Assembly (NCBI GenBank): GCA_021824145.1
Contig: JAKALM010000007.1
Location: forward strand, 62,001 to 126,000
Length of the DNA stretch: 64,000 bases
From: Bacteroidota bacterium
Lineage (GTDB): Bacteria; Bacteroidota; Ignavibacteria; Ignavibacteriales; Ignavibacteriaceae
Reading direction: 5' to 3'
Positions 20,081 to 49,787 of the stretch are shown piece by piece. The notes under the pieces are model-generated. The model was not told the DNA's origin. It was given only the letters and a program-made list of their open reading frames with translations, and did no database searches. The translations under genes and the position numbers were made by a program. Position 1 is the stretch's first letter. Each line of letters begins with the position of its first letter.

Positions 20081-21212
20081 ATGCTTCTAATATATCATTA
20101 TCGTAACCAATGAATAAAGTATTTCTGAAATATAACGGTGTTAACCTTGCATGAGAAGGAAGAATAAACCGCTTGATTATTTTTCCATTTAAGGTTTCAA
20201 CAAAATCTAATTGGCCATCAAGATTTGGAATTATTAAATAGTTATTAGTTAAAAGCGGTGTAGCATTAATAACTCCGTTCAATTTGGTTAGCCAAATTGT
20301 TTTTCCATTTCCGATTTCAATTGCAAAAAATCTGCCGCCTAAATTTCCCACAAATACATTTTCGTTATTAAACACTGGAGTTGAAACAATTTCTGAACCA
20401 GTTTCAACCTTCCAAATAACTTTTCCGTTTTTTAAACTTACAGCATACAATGTCCCGTTTTTATCTCCTAGAAAAGCTGTAGAATCCGATATAGAAACAC
20501 TATTTGTAAATATATATCCTATTTTATTTTTAAATATTACATTTCCATTATAAGAGTTCAAACCAATTACTTCACCATTATCATTGCCGAAGATAACGAT
20601 GCCATTATTCATTGCTGGCGAACAGTGTGTCCTAACTTTTGTTTCTGTTTCCCAAACTTTAGAACCATTATAATTATACTTGTAAACATTTCCACTAAGT
20701 GTTACAAAAATAACTCCATCTTTTGTTTGAATTAACTCAGATATTATTTTGTCGATAATTTTAATTTTAAATATTGGTTCTCCAGTTCTTAAATTATAAT
20801 AATTTAGTAAAGAATAATTTTCGTTATTCAATGCAATAGGATAGATCAAAGTATTATTATTAATAATTGGCGAAGAAAATATCGCTCCTTTATCTTTAAG
20901 TTGTCCTAATTGTTTTCCTGTATTCACATCTAAACAAGTTATCCATCCTGACAAATCATTAATAAATAAATAAGAGTTATAAATTGTAACTGTTGAATTC
21001 GTTATTCCACCGTTAATATCTTTTTTCCATTTAAGTTTTAATGAATCGCTAATTGAAATTGGAACAAAAAAATCGCGGCTAGGAATTTTACCAAACATTG
21101 TGTATGGATCTGGATCTGGTTTAACATTAAGTTTGATAACGGATGGGAAACATCCTTCTAAAAAAATTAATAAAATAAATATTATGTAAAAGTATAATTT
21201 CAAAAATCCCAT
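20064..21212 (-). CDS. PQQ-like beta-propeller lipoprotein, BamB-like
   Basis: The N-terminal hydrophobic segment ends in a lipobox (FLEGC, Cys near residue 21). The body has successive PQQ-type repeats of about 40 residues, each with a blade ending like GKVIWKVETG or NGKTIWLTKLNG. This resembles BamB, the scaffold of the outer-membrane assembly machine, but also other propeller lipoproteins. It overlaps the upstream metallopeptidase/barrel gene by 13 bases and the downstream PEGA gene by 17, so all three are translationally linked. A role with the barrel protein as partner or scaffold is inferred from this linkage. Confidence 0.7.
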   Translation of the reverse strand: MGFLKLYFYIIFILLIFLEGCFPSVIKLNVKPDPDPYTMFGKIPSRDFFVPISISDSLKLKWKKDINGGITNSTVTIYNSYLFINDLSGWITCLDVNTGKQLGQLKDKGAIFSSPIINNNTLIYPIALNNENYSLLNYYNLRTGEPIFKIKIIDKIISELIQTKDGVIFVTLSGNVYKYNYNGSKVWETETKVRTHCSPAMNNGIVIFGNDNGEVIGLNSYNGNVIFKNKIGYIFTNSVSISDSTAFLGDKNGTLYAVSLKNGKVIWKVETGSEIVSTPVFNNENVFVGNLGGRFFAIEIGNGKTIWLTKLNGVINATPLLTNNYLIIPNLDGQLDFVETLNGKIIKRFILPSHARLTPLYFRNTLFIGYDNDILEAYEIVK

Positions 21213-24019
21213 CCGAAAAAGAACTGATAAAAAAGTCTTGGCTGAAAATCATTGAAATTGTTTTCGATTCGTTTGCCAACATCGTATCGAAGCACTAAAG
21301 CTCCAAATAAATTAATTCTAATTCCTGCTCCAATGCTTCCTAAAGTAGTTAAATAGTTTGTATCCCAAGCGCTGCCGGCATCAAAAAAAAGCGCTCCTCG
21401 TATACCAAAAAAACCTAGATTCATAAATGGAAATTTAACATTCAACTGGTCTATCAAAGGAAACCTTAATTCAACAGAGCTAAGCCACATTTTTTGCCCT
21501 CGAATTGACCACAAAGGCCAGCCTCTTAAATCCCAGCTTCCGCCCATAAAATATCGCCGTGCTTCTTTACCTTGATTATAAAATAATGCACCACGAAATG
21601 CTATAGCTGAGCTGTAGCCAAGTCTAAAATATTGTCGGTAATCCGCAATAATAGAATAATAATTTACATTGCTGTATTTTATATCGCTAGTATAACCAAG
21701 AAGAACTCTTGCTCTAATTCCATCTAACGGACCGGTTGGGCCCCAAAGTGAATTATCATAAACATAAGAAAGAGTGTTACTTACCATCAAAGCTTTACGT
21801 TCAATTTCACCTGTATAGACCTGTTTATCAGAATTTATAATTGAAACGTCAGATTCAATTCTATCAAAAATTGAAAGAGGATAATACAAGAGAAAAAATC
21901 CTCCAAAACTTCTTTCAAAAAAATATTCATCCGATTGAGTTATATCATATCTATCGCCGCTGAAATGGAACACACCATAGCCATAATTTGCTCGCTGCCC
22001 AAGATTAATTCTCTCAATTTCAACATTAAAACTTTTTAAAATATCACTTTGAACCTGAGCCGTATTATAAATTAAGAAATAATATTTATCATTGCCTAAA
22101 AGATCGCTCAATGAAATTATTGCACCGCCTCGAGTTCCAAAAACAGGATCTGTTGATACCTGACTTTGTGCGTAATCTATGCTGTATTCTCTCTGGTAGG
22201 CTAATTTTTCTTTTTCAGCACTTCGTGAAAGAGATGTAGGTTCCCAAATACCTGCTGTCGAATCAATCTGCATTGTAATGTACTGTTCTGTATCAATAGC
22301 AGGCTTATCTAATTTCGTTTTGTATAAATTAAATGAAAAATTTTGGAAACCAGAAAAAACTATTTCGTTAGAATCAATATAAACCGGATTGAAAGCACTT
22401 GTTATAAAATTTGTTATTCTTTTTATCCTATGCAAAAACATTTCATCGGCTACATTCATTTCATAAATATTTCTTACTCCGTCTAATTCTGATGTAAAGA
22501 GCAGAGTTTTTTTATCAGGCGAAATTATTGGAGAATAGCAATTCGAATTAAGATAAGTTATATAATTAATATGATGTGTAATTAAATTATATGAAAATAA
22601 ATTGTAAGTCATTTTATATTTTCCAGCGGTGCGATCTGATGAAAAAACAATTTGATTGTCGCTTAAACCAAAAGTTGGATCGTGATCATCATAAATATCA
22701 TTTGTTATTCGCACAAGTGAATCGGACGGGATATCAAACATAAAAATATCACTAAAACCTTTTTGATCAACAGCCTGAAATACTATTCTATTTCCATCAT
22801 GAGAAAATTTTGGTGATGATATGCTAATTAAATCTTGGTTCTTGTAATTTTTAATAATTTTATTTTTTTTGATTGAAAAAAAATGAATTGCATCTGTGCC
22901 GCCATCTTTAGTTACAAATGCAATTATTCCTTCTTTGGAGATATCAATTGAAGATTGAAATAAATGAAATGCTTCCAACTCTTGAGTTTTTTCACCCCTA
23001 AGAACTAATTCCGGTTCGTTGAATTCTTCTTTAGTTTTTTCTTCTTTTACTCTGTACAAAGAAGAATAACCATCACGATTAGCAACAAAATAAATATATT
23101 TTGTTCCATTTATTTCATACGGAACGGGTGAAAAATTAAATCCAAAGTTTGTAATTTTTTCCGATGCATTATCTGGCGGAGCTTTATCCTTTATTAAAGG
23201 ATAATATTTTCTCTTTAAATAAAATGTCCAATCTTTATCAATGTCCTTTAATGGTTCATCAAGAGTATATTCCATTACTTTGTTGAAACTTGAGTACATC
23301 CAAAAATTATCAAGTATTTGAAGAACTTTTTCTTTGCCAAATTTGTGCGCAACAAATTCTAAAAAATTTTGTCCTTCTTTATACATTAAAAAAGTTCCGC
23401 TTATTTGATAAATATTTTCTAAATTAAAAAAATATCCATCGATAACAGCATCGCGCATTACCATTCTTGCTTGTGAATCTTCATCAGTTGAGATATATTC
23501 TGCCAATCCTTCTGTATACCAAAGCGGAGGATAATAATCGTCTGGCAAGCGATGATCTTTAAATACTCGATAAAGTTTTGCCGTCATAAAAACGTGAGTT
23601 AATTCGTGCCGAATTACATGTTTAAAATCATGAAGCGAACCTGTGTTAGGAATTACTACTCTGCCTTTCATGTATTCAAAAAATCCGCCTACACCTTCGG
23701 GAATTAAGCCTGGAGTTGTGTTTGTTTGTTCAAATTGATTTGAAGTGTTGTAAAAAATTAAAGGAATCCGGTGAGATATTACAATATTAAATCTTACTTT
23801 GTATTCTTCATAAGTCTGCTCAGCTATTGAAGCACCAATGTTGGCAACTTCTCCCATTTCATCATAATAATAAATGTTGAAATGTTTTGTGCGGAGAATT
23901 TTCCAATCAAACTTTTGATATTGGACTTTGTTTCTTCCAAAATCATAATATTGCCCCAAAAGGTTTTCGTTCAGAATAATTAATAAAAAAAGAATAAAAT
24001 ATTTTATTAGTCTGTTCAA
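21200..24019 (-). CDS. Peptidase MA-like / PD40 propeller / outer-membrane beta-barrel fusion
   Basis: Domains in order: signal peptide; a gluzincin-type metallopeptidase domain at about 40-270 with HELTH near 138-142 and a downstream Glu in WYTEGLAEY; a TolB-like PD40 propeller at about 290-600 (SPKFSHDGNRIVFQA, SPIISPDKKTLLFTSELDG); and a C-terminal Omp85/BamA-like barrel to 939 (YFMGGSWDLRGWPLWSIRGQ, then LFFDAGSAWD and GAGIRINL), ending in the aromatic WDF. The zinc-site residues are intact. The protein should be anchored by its barrel with the peptidase and propeller in the periplasm or outside. The start is TTG at 24019 with AAGG eight bases upstream; no ATG exists ahead of the signal peptide. 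Confidence 0.8.
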   Translation of the reverse strand: MNRLIKYFILFLLIILNENLLGQYYDFGRNKVQYQKFDWKILRTKHFNIYYYDEMGEVANIGASIAEQTYEEYKVRFNIVISHRIPLIFYNTSNQFEQTNTTPGLIPEGVGGFFEYMKGRVVIPNTGSLHDFKHVIRHELTHVFMTAKLYRVFKDHRLPDDYYPPLWYTEGLAEYISTDEDSQARMVMRDAVIDGYFFNLENIYQISGTFLMYKEGQNFLEFVAHKFGKEKVLQILDNFWMYSSFNKVMEYTLDEPLKDIDKDWTFYLKRKYYPLIKDKAPPDNASEKITNFGFNFSPVPYEINGTKYIYFVANRDGYSSLYRVKEEKTKEEFNEPELVLRGEKTQELEAFHLFQSSIDISKEGIIAFVTKDGGTDAIHFFSIKKNKIIKNYKNQDLISISSPKFSHDGNRIVFQAVDQKGFSDIFMFDIPSDSLVRITNDIYDDHDPTFGLSDNQIVFSSDRTAGKYKMTYNLFSYNLITHHINYITYLNSNCYSPIISPDKKTLLFTSELDGVRNIYEMNVADEMFLHRIKRITNFITSAFNPVYIDSNEIVFSGFQNFSFNLYKTKLDKPAIDTEQYITMQIDSTAGIWEPTSLSRSAEKEKLAYQREYSIDYAQSQVSTDPVFGTRGGAIISLSDLLGNDKYYFLIYNTAQVQSDILKSFNVEIERINLGQRANYGYGVFHFSGDRYDITQSDEYFFERSFGGFFLLYYPLSIFDRIESDVSIINSDKQVYTGEIERKALMVSNTLSYVYDNSLWGPTGPLDGIRARVLLGYTSDIKYSNVNYYSIIADYRQYFRLGYSSAIAFRGALFYNQGKEARRYFMGGSWDLRGWPLWSIRGQKMWLSSVELRFPLIDQLNVKFPFMNLGFFGIRGALFFDAGSAWDTNYLTTLGSIGAGIRINLFGALVLRYDVGKRIENNFNDFQPRLFYQFFFGWDF

Positions 24020-45877: not shown

Positions 45878-47422
45878 TCATAATGGGATATTCCCATGCT
45901 TTTTCTTAGGGTTTTTATCTACTTTAGTTTTTAATATTTTATATGCATTAATCAATTTAATTTTAGTGTCTTTTGGCAATATTATATCGTCAATATATCC
46001 TCTTTCTGCAGCAATATAAGGATTTGCAAATTTTTCAATAAATTCAGATAATTTGTTCTCCAATTCTTTTTCTGGCTCTTTAGAATTTGAAATTTCTTTT
46101 TTAAATATAATTTCTACAGCACCTTTTGGTCCCATTACAGCAATTTCAGCAGAAGGCCAAGCAAAATTAAAATCACCTCTAACATGTTTTGAATTCATAA
46201 CGTCATAAGCGCCGCCGTATGCTTTTCTTGTAATTACAGTAACTTTAGGAACAGTCGCTTCGCAAAATGCATATAAAAGTTTAGCACCATGTCTAATAAT
46301 TCCATTCCATTCTTGTTCTGTTCCAGGAAGGAAACCAGGTACATCAACTAAAACTAAAAGTGGAATATTAAACGCATCACAAAACCTAACAAATCTCGCG
46401 CCTTTAACAGAAGCGTTAATATCCAAAACTCCAGCAAGAATTTCGGGCTGATTGGCGACAATTCCGACGGACATTCCGCCAATTCTTGCAAAACCAACAA
46501 TAATATTTTCGGCATAATTTGATTGAACTTCCATAAAATCATTATTGTCTACAATCAAATTAATTATCTGCTTCATATCATATGGTTTATTGGAATTTTC
46601 CGGAACTATTTCATTTAATCTTTCATCTGGAAAAAGATCTTCAAAATTAAATTCTACATCTATCGGTTTATCCATAAAATTTTGAGGCAGAAAGCTCATT
46701 AGACGTCGAACATTTGTCAAAGTTTCTATTTCATTCTCATAAATAAAATGCGCTACTCCACTTTTAGAAGCATGAGTTTCGGCTCCTCCTAAATCTTCAA
46801 AACTGACTTCTTCATGAGTTACAGTTTTTACAACATTTGGTCCCGTAACAAACATATAACTAGTACTTTTTGCCATAAAAATAAAATCAGTAATTGCCGG
46901 CGAATAAACAGCACCGCCTGCACAAGGACCAAGCACGACTGAAATTTGAGGTACAACTCCTGATGCTAATGTATTAAGAAGAAATATATCTGCATATCCA
47001 CCTAAACTAACAACACCTTCCTGAATTCTTGCTCCTCCAGAATCATTTAATCCAATTACAGGAACACCAATTTTCATAGCCATTTCCAATATTTTAACAA
47101 TTTTTTCTGCATGCGCTTCTGATAATGAGCCGCCAAAAACCGTAAAATCTTGACTAAATAATGCAACTTGCTTGTTGTTTATTTTTGCGAATCCGGTTAT
47201 AACTCCATCTCCAGGATAATGCTGTTTGTCTAGTCCAAAATCTGTTGCTCGATGTTTGACGAAAATATCGATTTCCTCAAAACTGCCTTCATCTACTAAT
47301 AATTCAATTCTTTCTCGGGCTGTTAATTTTCCTTTTTTATGCTGGCTATCTATTTTATCCAAACCGCCGCCAAGTTTCGCTTCTTCTTTCCTTTTAATTA
47401 GTTCATCATTTTTATTAATCAT
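45878..47422 (-). CDS. Acyl-CoA carboxylase beta subunit (carboxyltransferase; propionyl/methylmalonyl type)
   Basis: A 514-residue carboxyltransferase with both crotonase-like halves. The N-half has [20 protein letters not shown] and [13 protein letters not shown], the C-half [20 protein letters not shown] and [12 protein letters not shown]. It moves carboxyl between biotin and acyl-CoA, as in propionyl-CoA carboxylase or the alpha subunit of methylmalonyl-CoA decarboxylase. No biotin carboxylase, biotin carrier or membrane decarboxylase subunit lies nearby, so the partner is encoded elsewhere. It lies 104 bases after the ABC pair. Confidence 0.92.
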
Positions 47423-47526: not shown

Positions 47527-48288
47527 TCACTTGTAAGACTTTTCAATCAAAAGCTTAATTGAATTATAATAATCAGAATTCAAATCTAAATTTTGTTTTT
47601 TATCAATTTCAAATTCATTAATAATTTTTCCTGGATGAGAGCTCATTAACACAATTTTATTAGAAACTGATATTGCTTCATTAATATTTGAAGTGGTATA
47701 GAGAATTGTTAGGTTCAATTTATCGGTCAAATTATTAACAAGTGAAATTATTTCACTTTTTGTTTCACCATGCAAATTTCCGAAAGGATTTTCAAATAAA
47801 ATAATTTTGGGACTGACAGCTAAAGCACGAGCAAAAGAAATTCTAAACCTAAATCCTAAACTTTTATCGTGTGGGAAATGATTCTCATATCCATCTAATC
47901 CAACTGATGAAATTAATTCATTTATTATTTTTTGATTATTCGTAATATCGTTTTTTAATTCATATGCATATTGAATATTTTGTTTTACACTCATCCAAGG
48001 AAAGGAAGATGGTTCTTCTGGAATGTAAGCAATATCACCAGTTGGTTTATTATATTCCTTCCCAAATAAAATGATATTTCCCTGTGATGGTTTTTCGATA
48101 GAAGAGATAATTTTAAGAAGTGTAGTTTTACTTAAAGAATTTTGTGCTAGAATAGAAACTATATTTCCTGAATTAGAATTGTTTTTTATTTTAAAACAAA
48201 TATCATCTAAAATTAATTGTTTAGCTCCAGCAAGTCCATAATTCCACTTTGAAATATTATTTACTTCTAATAAAAATTCAGAACTCAA
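47527..48288 (-). CDS. ABC-transporter ATPase-like protein with degenerate catalytic motifs
   Basis: The fold matches SsuB/TauB/ThiZ-type ATPases, but every motor motif is altered. Walker A reads AQNSLSKTT instead of GxxGxGKST, though Lys and Thr remain. The Q-loop region is YIPEEPSSFPW, with the Q lost. The signature is KSLGF instead of LSGGQ. Walker B ends ILFENP, so the catalytic Glu is Asn. The switch His region is TTSN instead of THD. The reading frame is intact, so it is probably expressed but unlikely to hydrolyse ATP normally. The start is a TTG at 48288 with GGAG six bases upstream, overlapping the permease stop as TTGA. Confidence 0.8.
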   Translation of the reverse strand: MSSEFLLEVNNISKWNYGLAGAKQLILDDICFKIKNNSNSGNIVSILAQNSLSKTTLLKIISSIEKPSQGNIILFGKEYNKPTGDIAYIPEEPSSFPWMSVKQNIQYAYELKNDITNNQKIINELISSVGLDGYENHFPHDKSLGFRFRISFARALAVSPKIILFENPFGNLHGETKSEIISLVNNLTDKLNLTILYTTSNINEAISVSNKIVLMSSHPGKIINEFEIDKKQNLDLNSDYYNSIKLLIEKSYK

Positions 48289-49046
48289 ACAAAACTCCAA
48301 TGATAAAACTTGTTTTTCAAATAAAGGATTAATTTAGACCCAATGTAAACGCTGATACCAGTAATAATTAATAAGGTGAAAAGTGCTGACAAATCTTTAT
48401 ACTCTAATGCATGTTTATAAATAATTCCTAAACCATTTCTATTGCTAATGTATTCAAAAACTATAATAAGCGACCATAATTGGAAATTCAAAATTCTTAA
48501 ATGATCAAATATTTTCGGCTGCGATCCTTTCCAAATAATTTTTTTAGCAATATTTTTTTCATTTGCTCCTAAAGAAACCGCTGAGTCGATATATTCATTT
48601 TTAATATTTTTCATTTCTTTCTTTAAATGTGTGATTATTGAAAAAAATGAAGTGGAAAAAATAAAAATATATTTAACATATTCTGAAGAAGGAAGCCAGT
48701 ATATCAAGAATATGCCTATAATTATCCAAGGGACAAATTCTCCAAACCAATGTAGAGAAAAGATAAAATCAGATATCACATGATTACTCTTTATTAAATA
48801 AACTCTTAGCAGCCATACAGTAAAATAAGCTAGCGCCATGGAAAAATAAATTGCAAATACAGTTGAAATAAAATTTAATGGTAATTTATAATCGTTCCAT
48901 AAAGCACTAAATGATAACAAAACTACCGATGGTTTTGGTAAGATATTATTGACTGGTAAAATAAATTCAAAAAGTAAAATCCAAAGAATGAAATAAAGAA
49001 AGAGTAACTTATGAAAATTTTTTACTGCGTTTTTTTTCATTCTCAT
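48285..49046 (-). CDS. ABC transporter permease, SsuC/TauC/ThiX-like
   Basis: About six helices and the BPD_transp_1 cytoplasmic loop (EYIDSAVSLGANEKNIAKKI), which docks to the ATPase and here matches the EAA-loop pattern with substitutions. The pair with the degenerate ATPase (four-base overlap) resembles the sulfonate/taurine/HMP importer group, but no substrate-binding protein is present. The frame opens at a TTG at 49076; ATGs at 49046 and 49040 are better starts, but no Shine-Dalgarno decides. The substrate is unknown. Confidence 0.75.
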   Translation of the reverse strand: MRMKKNAVKNFHKLLFLYFILWILLFEFILPVNNILPKPSVVLLSFSALWNDYKLPLNFISTVFAIYFSMALAYFTVWLLRVYLIKSNHVISDFIFSLHWFGEFVPWIIIGIFLIYWLPSSEYVKYIFIFSTSFFSIITHLKKEMKNIKNEYIDSAVSLGANEKNIAKKIIWKGSQPKIFDHLRILNFQLWSLIIVFEYISNRNGLGIIYKHALEYKDLSALFTLLIITGISVYIGSKLILYLKNKFYHWSFV

Positions 49047-49130
49047 AGAATGTTGGTTTTTAAAATATTTGAACAAAATTGTATAAAATATTTATTTGAA
49101 TATATCTAATCTGAAAATATATATCAACAA

Positions 49131-49787
49131 TTAGGATTTACTAAATTCGTGTAAGAAAGGATTTTCATTTTTTTCTAACCCAATCTTACTACTTTCGCCA
49201 TGGCCTGGATAAATGGTTACATTTTCTGGAAGCGAAAATAATTTTGTTTTAATAGATTGAATTAAAGTATTATAATCGCCTCCCCAAAGGTCTGTTCTGC
49301 CAATACTATTTTTGAAAAGTACATCACCAGTAATACAAAATGCTTCTCTTTCAAAATAGATACAAAATTCGCCAGGTGTGTGCCCGGGCGTATATAAAAA
49401 TGTAATTATAGATCTGCCCAATTGTAATTGCAATTCTTCTGATAAATAATTGTCAGGTTTTGGAAGCTTTTTAATTTCCAATCCAAATGCTGAAGCTTGA
49501 ATTTCAGCTCTATCAAGAAGAAATAAATCTCTTTCGGGAATAAAGTAAATTGGATTATATTTTTCTTTAACAAAATTGCAACCCAAAATATGATCGATAT
49601 GGCAATGAGTATTTATTAAATATTTTACTTCAAGATTATGTTCAGAAATATAATTTGATAATTTTTCCTCTTCAGAAATATTTGAACAGCCAGGATCTAT
49701 AATCGCACTTTCTTTTGTTAATTCATCCCAAACAACATAAGTTATTTCAGAAAATAAATTAAATGTAAAACTTTTTATAACTATCAT
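49131..49787 (-). CDS. MBL-fold metallohydrolase (glyoxalase II-like)
   Basis: The zinc-site motif THCHIDH and the later His and Asp sites (TPGHTPGEF, FCITGDVLF and YPGHG) are present, as in hydroxyacylglutathione hydrolase-like proteins. The 218-residue length is that of the short thioesterase-like group (YcbL-like). Cytoplasmic; the substrate may be a thioester. It follows aroC by 29 bases and precedes the ABC permease, so it is likely in the same transcript. Confidence 0.85.
   Translation of the reverse strand: MIVIKSFTFNLFSEITYVVWDELTKESAIIDPGCSNISEEEKLSNYISEHNLEVKYLINTHCHIDHILGCNFVKEKYNPIYFIPERDLFLLDRAEIQASAFGLEIKKLPKPDNYLSEELQLQLGRSIITFLYTPGHTPGEFCIYFEREAFCITGDVLFKNSIGRTDLWGGDYNTLIQSIKTKLFSLPENVTIYPGHGESSKIGLEKNENPFLHEFSKS

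Follow-up and report, generated by a model that had tools for sequence, protein, structure and literature searches.

A permease–ATPase gene pair of the type I importer kind lies in the window (the whole 64,000-nucleotide stretch of DNA analysed here), and we consider it fairly probable that the pair encodes an ancient pseudo-ABC-transporter, with a nucleotide-binding domain (NBD) that was disabled for efficient hydrolysis before the families of the order diverged and that now serves assembly, sensing or passive passage. Since this engine-less pair occupies the same chromosomal position in dozens of related genera, it has the look of a machine of another kind that has been preserved, rather than of a pump that broke recently. 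The preliminary description had proposed a structural or regulatory pseudo-ATPase, which is the best fit. Folds and ancestry are ordinary; a conserved importer-type pair with its sole NBD degenerate is not, and no description of such a family was found in the open-access literature.

Gene pair, folds and known relatives

The ATPase scores 58.3 bits against Pfam ABC_tran (cut-off 25) and thus belongs to the ABC NBD family, and the permease scores 43 bits against BPD_transp_1 (cut-off 26.4), as a type I permease of the NrtB/SsuC/TauC type (Table 1). A coupled start and a partner permease had been described, and the ATPase start does overlap the permease stop; the TTG at window positions 48286-48288 (-) is likely an alternative ATPase start, in place of the TTG at 48300. 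A longer permease frame opens at a TTG at 49076 (48285-49076 (-), 263 codons), but the orthologue alignment fits the originally proposed ATG at 49046 (MRMKK) better. The flanking MBL hydrolase and carboxyltransferase genes are housekeeping genes that are uninformative on the role of the pair, and they are probably not functional parts of it.

Table 1 Features of the gene pair and its surroundings, in window coordinates
Feature	Position	Strand	Description	Basis or canonical form
Pseudo-ATPase (NBD) gene	47527..48300	-	257 codons, TTG start at 48300	Pfam ABC_tran
Alternative ATPase start	48288-48286	-	TTG, 253 aa; 4-nt TTGA overlap with permease stop	
Partner permease gene (type I importer transmembrane subunit)	48285..49046	-	253 aa, ATG at 49046	BPD_transp_1 and orthologue alignment
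MBL-fold hydrolase gene	49131..49787	-	Upstream neighbour	Conserved synteny
Acyl-CoA carboxyltransferase gene (mmdA/pccB-like)	45878..47422	-	Downstream neighbour	Conserved synteny
Permease EAA (coupling) loop	48510..48599	-	Residues 160-189 of the 263-codon frame	Pro replaced by Lys183
Degenerate Walker A	48124..48147	-	AQNSLSKT, residues 52-59; Lys58 and Thr59 retained	GxxGxGK[ST]
Q-loop	48016..48018	-	Gln to Glu95	Motif table
Docking-side segment after Q-loop	47977..48015	-	Residues 96-108 (EPSSFPWMSVKQN)	Family-conserved
Segment before signature	47866..47913	-	Residues 130-145	Tyr138 81/81, His141 about 80%
Altered signature	47842..47865	-	KSLGFRFR, residues 146-153	Replaces LSGGMRQR
Degenerate Walker B	47782..47799	-	LFENPF, residues 168-173; Asp170 to Glu, catalytic Glu171 to Asn	LLDEPF
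Switch His	47689..47691	-	His to Ser204	Motif table

The AF2 model of the ATPase, whose input alignment comprised 40 canonical homologues, reached a pLDDT of 94.7 and a pTM of 0.90; its nearest solved folds by Foldseek are NrtD/CmpD (TM 0.80-0.89), and the NrtC/NrtD and CmpC/CmpD subunits are its best sequence relatives in the PDB. The permease model has a pLDDT of 80 on a shallow alignment and lies nearest to CmpB/NrtB by the same search (TM 0.6-0.7). These models agree with the earlier statement that the fold is kept and the chemistry gone, in that the NBD fold is predicted to be retained while the catalytic motifs are altered. Alignment with NrtC bears out each substitution first named: GHSGCGKST to AQNSLSKTT in the Walker A region, LSGGMKQR to KSLGFRFR in the signature, LLLDEPFGALD to ILFENPFGNLH in the Walker B region and VTHD to TTSN in the switch region. 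Walker A and the signature, first described as lost, nevertheless keep some of their residues, namely Lys58 and Thr59 in the former and Ser147 and the second Gly (Gly149) in the latter; conversely, the preliminary description did not name the changes of the Q-loop Gln to Glu95, the D-loop Asp to His177 and the A-loop aromatic residue to Asn20. All members of the functional motif set (Walker A, Q-loop Gln, LSGGQ, Walker B D-E, D-loop Asp and switch His; motif roles in ABC NBDs are reviewed in PMC7756269) are altered in the window, and judged by these motifs the protein would not be a functional ABC ATPase.

Both subunit folds and the permease–ATPase gene arrangement are common to the window pair and the type I importers NrtBCD/CmpBCD, SsuBC and TauBC. 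Unlike these systems, the window pair has no substrate-binding protein of the types searched for, and its family is without the switch His, the Q-loop Gln (kept by 2 of 81 members) and the first signature Gly, with Lys in place of the EAA-loop Pro. The top NCBIfam models for both proteins are those of SaoA/SaoP, the Sec-assisted organometallic ABC system, but membership was rejected because the scores, 142 and 52 bits, are far below the respective cut-offs of 360 and 295; no binding protein adjoins the pair. FtsEX, BceAB and similar complexes use ABC architecture for signalling or mechanical roles instead of substrate pumping; their ATPase subunits are active and their permease fold differs from that of the window pair. 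Work on degenerate ABC sites has usually dealt with asymmetric pairs, in which such a site makes up one half. Heterodimeric exporters such as TAP, CFTR, MRP1 and Pdr5 have degenerate sites with similar changes (Walker B Glu to Asp/Asn, signature and H-loop), and in eukaryotic exporters such sites hydrolyse ATP poorly (PMC7756269). Whereas those exporters combine one degenerate with one active site, the window pair is of the bacterial importer type and its sole NBD gene is degenerate; a homodimer would therefore hold two degenerate sites.

Two steps of motif loss within one order

Whole-genome searches of relatives recovered the pair from the genus and family to which the window genome belongs and from two others of the order's families, giving an orthologue range of one order, three families and dozens of genera. 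At class level, the permease profile matched 63 of 391 genomes at E <= 1e-20, each with a single copy and all within the order, and ATPase profile matches of at least 220 bits came from order members only; the best out-of-order ATPase matches inspected were TauB-like proteins whose motifs, LSGGM and TH[DN], are canonical. In the phylum-wide search, family-level matches came from 30 genomes, every one of them a member of the order. At every one of the 77 loci read, the permease gene is followed directly by the ATPase gene on the same strand (gap <= 12 nt) and the frames of the pair are open; the carboxyltransferase gene lies downstream in 69 and the MBL hydrolase gene upstream in 55. A recent frameshift or assembly artefact is ruled out by these loci and, because dN/dS is also far below 1, the pair is not a product of chance or artefact, which upholds the original contention that it did not decay by frameshift.

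Motifs were tallied in 81 orthologues and 52 canonical relatives. The switch His is present in none of the orthologues versus all 52 relatives, the Q-loop Gln in 2 versus 52, and the first signature Gly in 0 versus 49; in its place the family has a hallmark signature, S-x-G-F-R-F/L-R, with Ser in 74, Gly in 78, Phe in 78 and Arg in 82 of 82 rows. The Walker A GK[ST] is intact in 69 of the 81, each of which also has the Walker B Asp, and the catalytic Glu is retained in 40, with Asp or Asn in most others. Walker A and both Walker B acids are found together in 37, and these members may, to go by their residues, have residual ATP hydrolysis. In a tree computed without the motif columns, the family forms one side of a branch with SH-aLRT 93, and the Walker A state changes at least nine times, as counted on a quick tree with many weak inner branches.

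Together, tally and tree point to two steps: hydrolysis-critical residues were lost early and family-wide, and nucleotide-binding residues later, repeatedly and in separate lineages, among them the window genome and its sister G012. As read from the alignments, the losses in the signature, in the Q-loop and at the switch His are old and family-wide, whereas the loss of Walker A in the window is a later step, since the motif is intact in most orthologues. Canonical motifs in close relatives had been proposed as a sign of recent decay, and the answer is split accordingly: 69 of 81 orthologues have a canonical Walker A, the loss of which came later here, and the other three losses run through the family.

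Selection and the proposed docking surface

Compared with its nearest relative, G012, the window has a Nei-Gojobori dN/dS of 0.20 in the ATPase gene (dS 1.15) and of 0.11 in the permease gene, about 2-5 times the values of most neighbours (about 0.045 for the carboxyltransferase, aroC and degP). Another pair of genomes gave 0.14 (G010/G003) and a Walker-A-less pair 0.24 (G031/G052). The comparison of dN/dS and motif columns that had been suggested earlier gave clear purifying selection, at about 0.2 for the ATPase and about 0.1 for the permease; neutral decay is excluded by these values, yet constraint is weaker than on the neighbours.

Catalytic columns average 2.28 bits in the family versus 3.50 in canonical relatives. 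In residues 130-145 conservation is instead raised by 0.60 bits, a value reached by 0 of 20,000 random column sets and 5 of 164 contiguous windows of residues, and in residues 96-108 by 0.24 bits, reached by 2% of random sets and 17 of 168 contiguous windows. Arg153 is present in all 81 orthologues, and Trp102, Asn108, Tyr138, His141, Phe150 and Arg153 are retained in nearly all 12 members without Walker A. Conservation has thus moved from the catalytic residues to the helical subdomain on which the permease would dock, the docking assignment being made by homology to MalK. In MalFGK2 the coupling helix docks into the helical-subdomain cleft of the NBD (PMC3150292), and the Q-loop region lines this cleft (PMC7658222).

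The permease has changed on its side as well. The EAA-loop Pro, present in 10 of 10 sampled canonical permeases, is Lys in 61 of 76 orthologues; the loop is still recognisable in the window protein despite this replacement, and the GxG motif is nearly invariant in the family. The distances of the two proteins are correlated once six neighbours have been corrected for (partial r 0.46, 0 of 2,000 permutations), which we take as supporting evidence only because a control pair, degP-LysM, reaches 0.69.

Alternative explanations and proposed role

An alternative interpretation is slow decay, in which a relic importer under weak constraint is being lost lineage by lineage without any special new function. 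At least ten genomes have the MBL gene directly adjoining the carboxyltransferase gene, and as nothing lies between the two, the pair has been cleanly lost there. Genomes with this junction are G013, G022, G024, G037, G041, G048, G051, G055, G060 and G073. Shrunken pairs occur at the same chromosomal position in G017, G042, G056 and G038 (L301, L302, L303 and L154), with permeases of 212-220 aa that are missing the N-terminal part and ATPases that are even more degenerate. These junctions and remnants, the repeated loss of Walker A and a dN/dS above that of most neighbours all favour slow decay, and the raised dN/dS and clean losses together do indicate a function that is dispensable and weakly constrained. 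We nevertheless consider decay without function unlikely because frames are open at 77 loci, dN/dS is 0.1-0.24, and Tyr138 and Arg153 (81/81 each), Phe150 and Trp102 are near-invariant even where Walker A is absent; family-specific residues kept across three families argue that the gene is not useless. A recent loss of function restricted to the window genome or its genus is by far the least credible reading: the window changes in Walker A, the Walker B Asp and the A-loop are indeed lineage-specific, but practically every orthologue sampled, across three families, has lost the switch His and the signature and Q-loop residues, and for these three motifs the orthologue table refutes it.

The pair could instead be a working ATP-driven importer whose unusual NBD hydrolyses by other residues and whose binding protein, of an unrelated family, is encoded elsewhere. 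Intact Walker A and Walker B Asp in 69 of 81 members, the catalytic Glu in 40, the retained signature Ser and second Gly and the nearly invariant permease GxG are what such an importer would have, but it is an improbable reading, since the switch His occurs in 0 and the Q-loop Gln in 2 of 81, the window member has neither P-loop glycines nor Walker B acids, and a TauA/SsuA-type binding protein was not found in the genome. As first described, no binding protein adjoins the pair; profile searches of the genome found no PF13379 protein and a single PF09084 match, PhnD in its own phn operon, so that no cognate binding protein is adjacent and none of these two types was found in the genome. An NMT1-type candidate at G000:C36 was rejected as this PhnD, in a phnD-phnC-permease operon. 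Slightly less probable again is that an active ATPase encoded elsewhere forms a heterodimer with the NBD or takes its place, as in degenerate-site or shared-ATPase transporters, a pairing that had been raised at the outset. Multitask ABC ATPases provide a precedent (PMC7658222), and the genome has an orphan UgpC/MalK-type ATPase (G000:C35:79631-80737; L315:5632-6738). However, this orphan is explained by an SBP-MalF-MalG importer on another contig (G000:C14, around 21000-23700; L309) that has no adjacent ATPase in the stretch read, the two forming an MsmX-like shared ATPase arrangement. The genome search that had been recommended returned neither an active TauB/SsuB-like ATPase, which an obligate heterodimer would need, nor a second TauC/SsuC-like permease; of 24 other ABC ATPase matches, 23 were readable, all with a canonical Walker A, and the next-best are at most about 30% identical to the window ATPase. 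The EAA loop has, moreover, diverged family-wide along with the pair's own NBD.

An ancient pseudo-transporter of this kind would probably descend from an importer like NrtBCD/SsuBC from which the binding protein and the hydrolysis-critical residues were lost; a permease dimer and an NBD dimer would still assemble, by way of a docking surface that has been remodelled. Most members have Walker A intact, and in these ATP would probably still bind and hold the NBDs together, as a switch that is slow or independent of hydrolysis and turns over little or not at all. In the window lineage the P-loop glycines are lost too and, in the window itself, also the A-loop aromatic residue and Walker B acids; going by these residues, nucleotide binding by the NBD is doubtful in this lineage, and the domain would probably serve the permease in assembly and gating without any need for nucleotide. 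With such an NBD, the complex would be a sensor or scaffold, or would allow passive, binding-protein-independent passage, and would not be a pump. We advance more tentatively the stronger proposal of an order-wide, vertically inherited ABC complex in which no member hydrolyses ATP, several independent lineages including that of the window use no nucleotide and the NBD is a gating or assembly subunit.

If true, a conserved importer-type complex with its sole NBD degenerate would be a natural experiment on ABC domains without hydrolysis. The family holds graded states (Walker A intact, Walker A lost, shrunken remnants and clean loss), and the sequence of steps by which an ATP motor is taken apart is therefore readable and testable. 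The automatic annotation 'ABC transporter ATP-binding protein' would then overstate transport capacity in these genomes.

Other genes were seen in related genomes. In G019 and G044, from which the pair is absent, a secreted, barrel-like ORF of 358-388 aa lies between the MBL and carboxyltransferase genes, and such an ORF also adjoins the pair in G017 (L296 2607-3680(-), L297 2276-3439(-) and L301 4295-5440(+)). G083 has, besides the degenerate pair, a complete canonical TauABC-type system with permease, ATPase and two SBP-like proteins (L314 4148-9195(-)).
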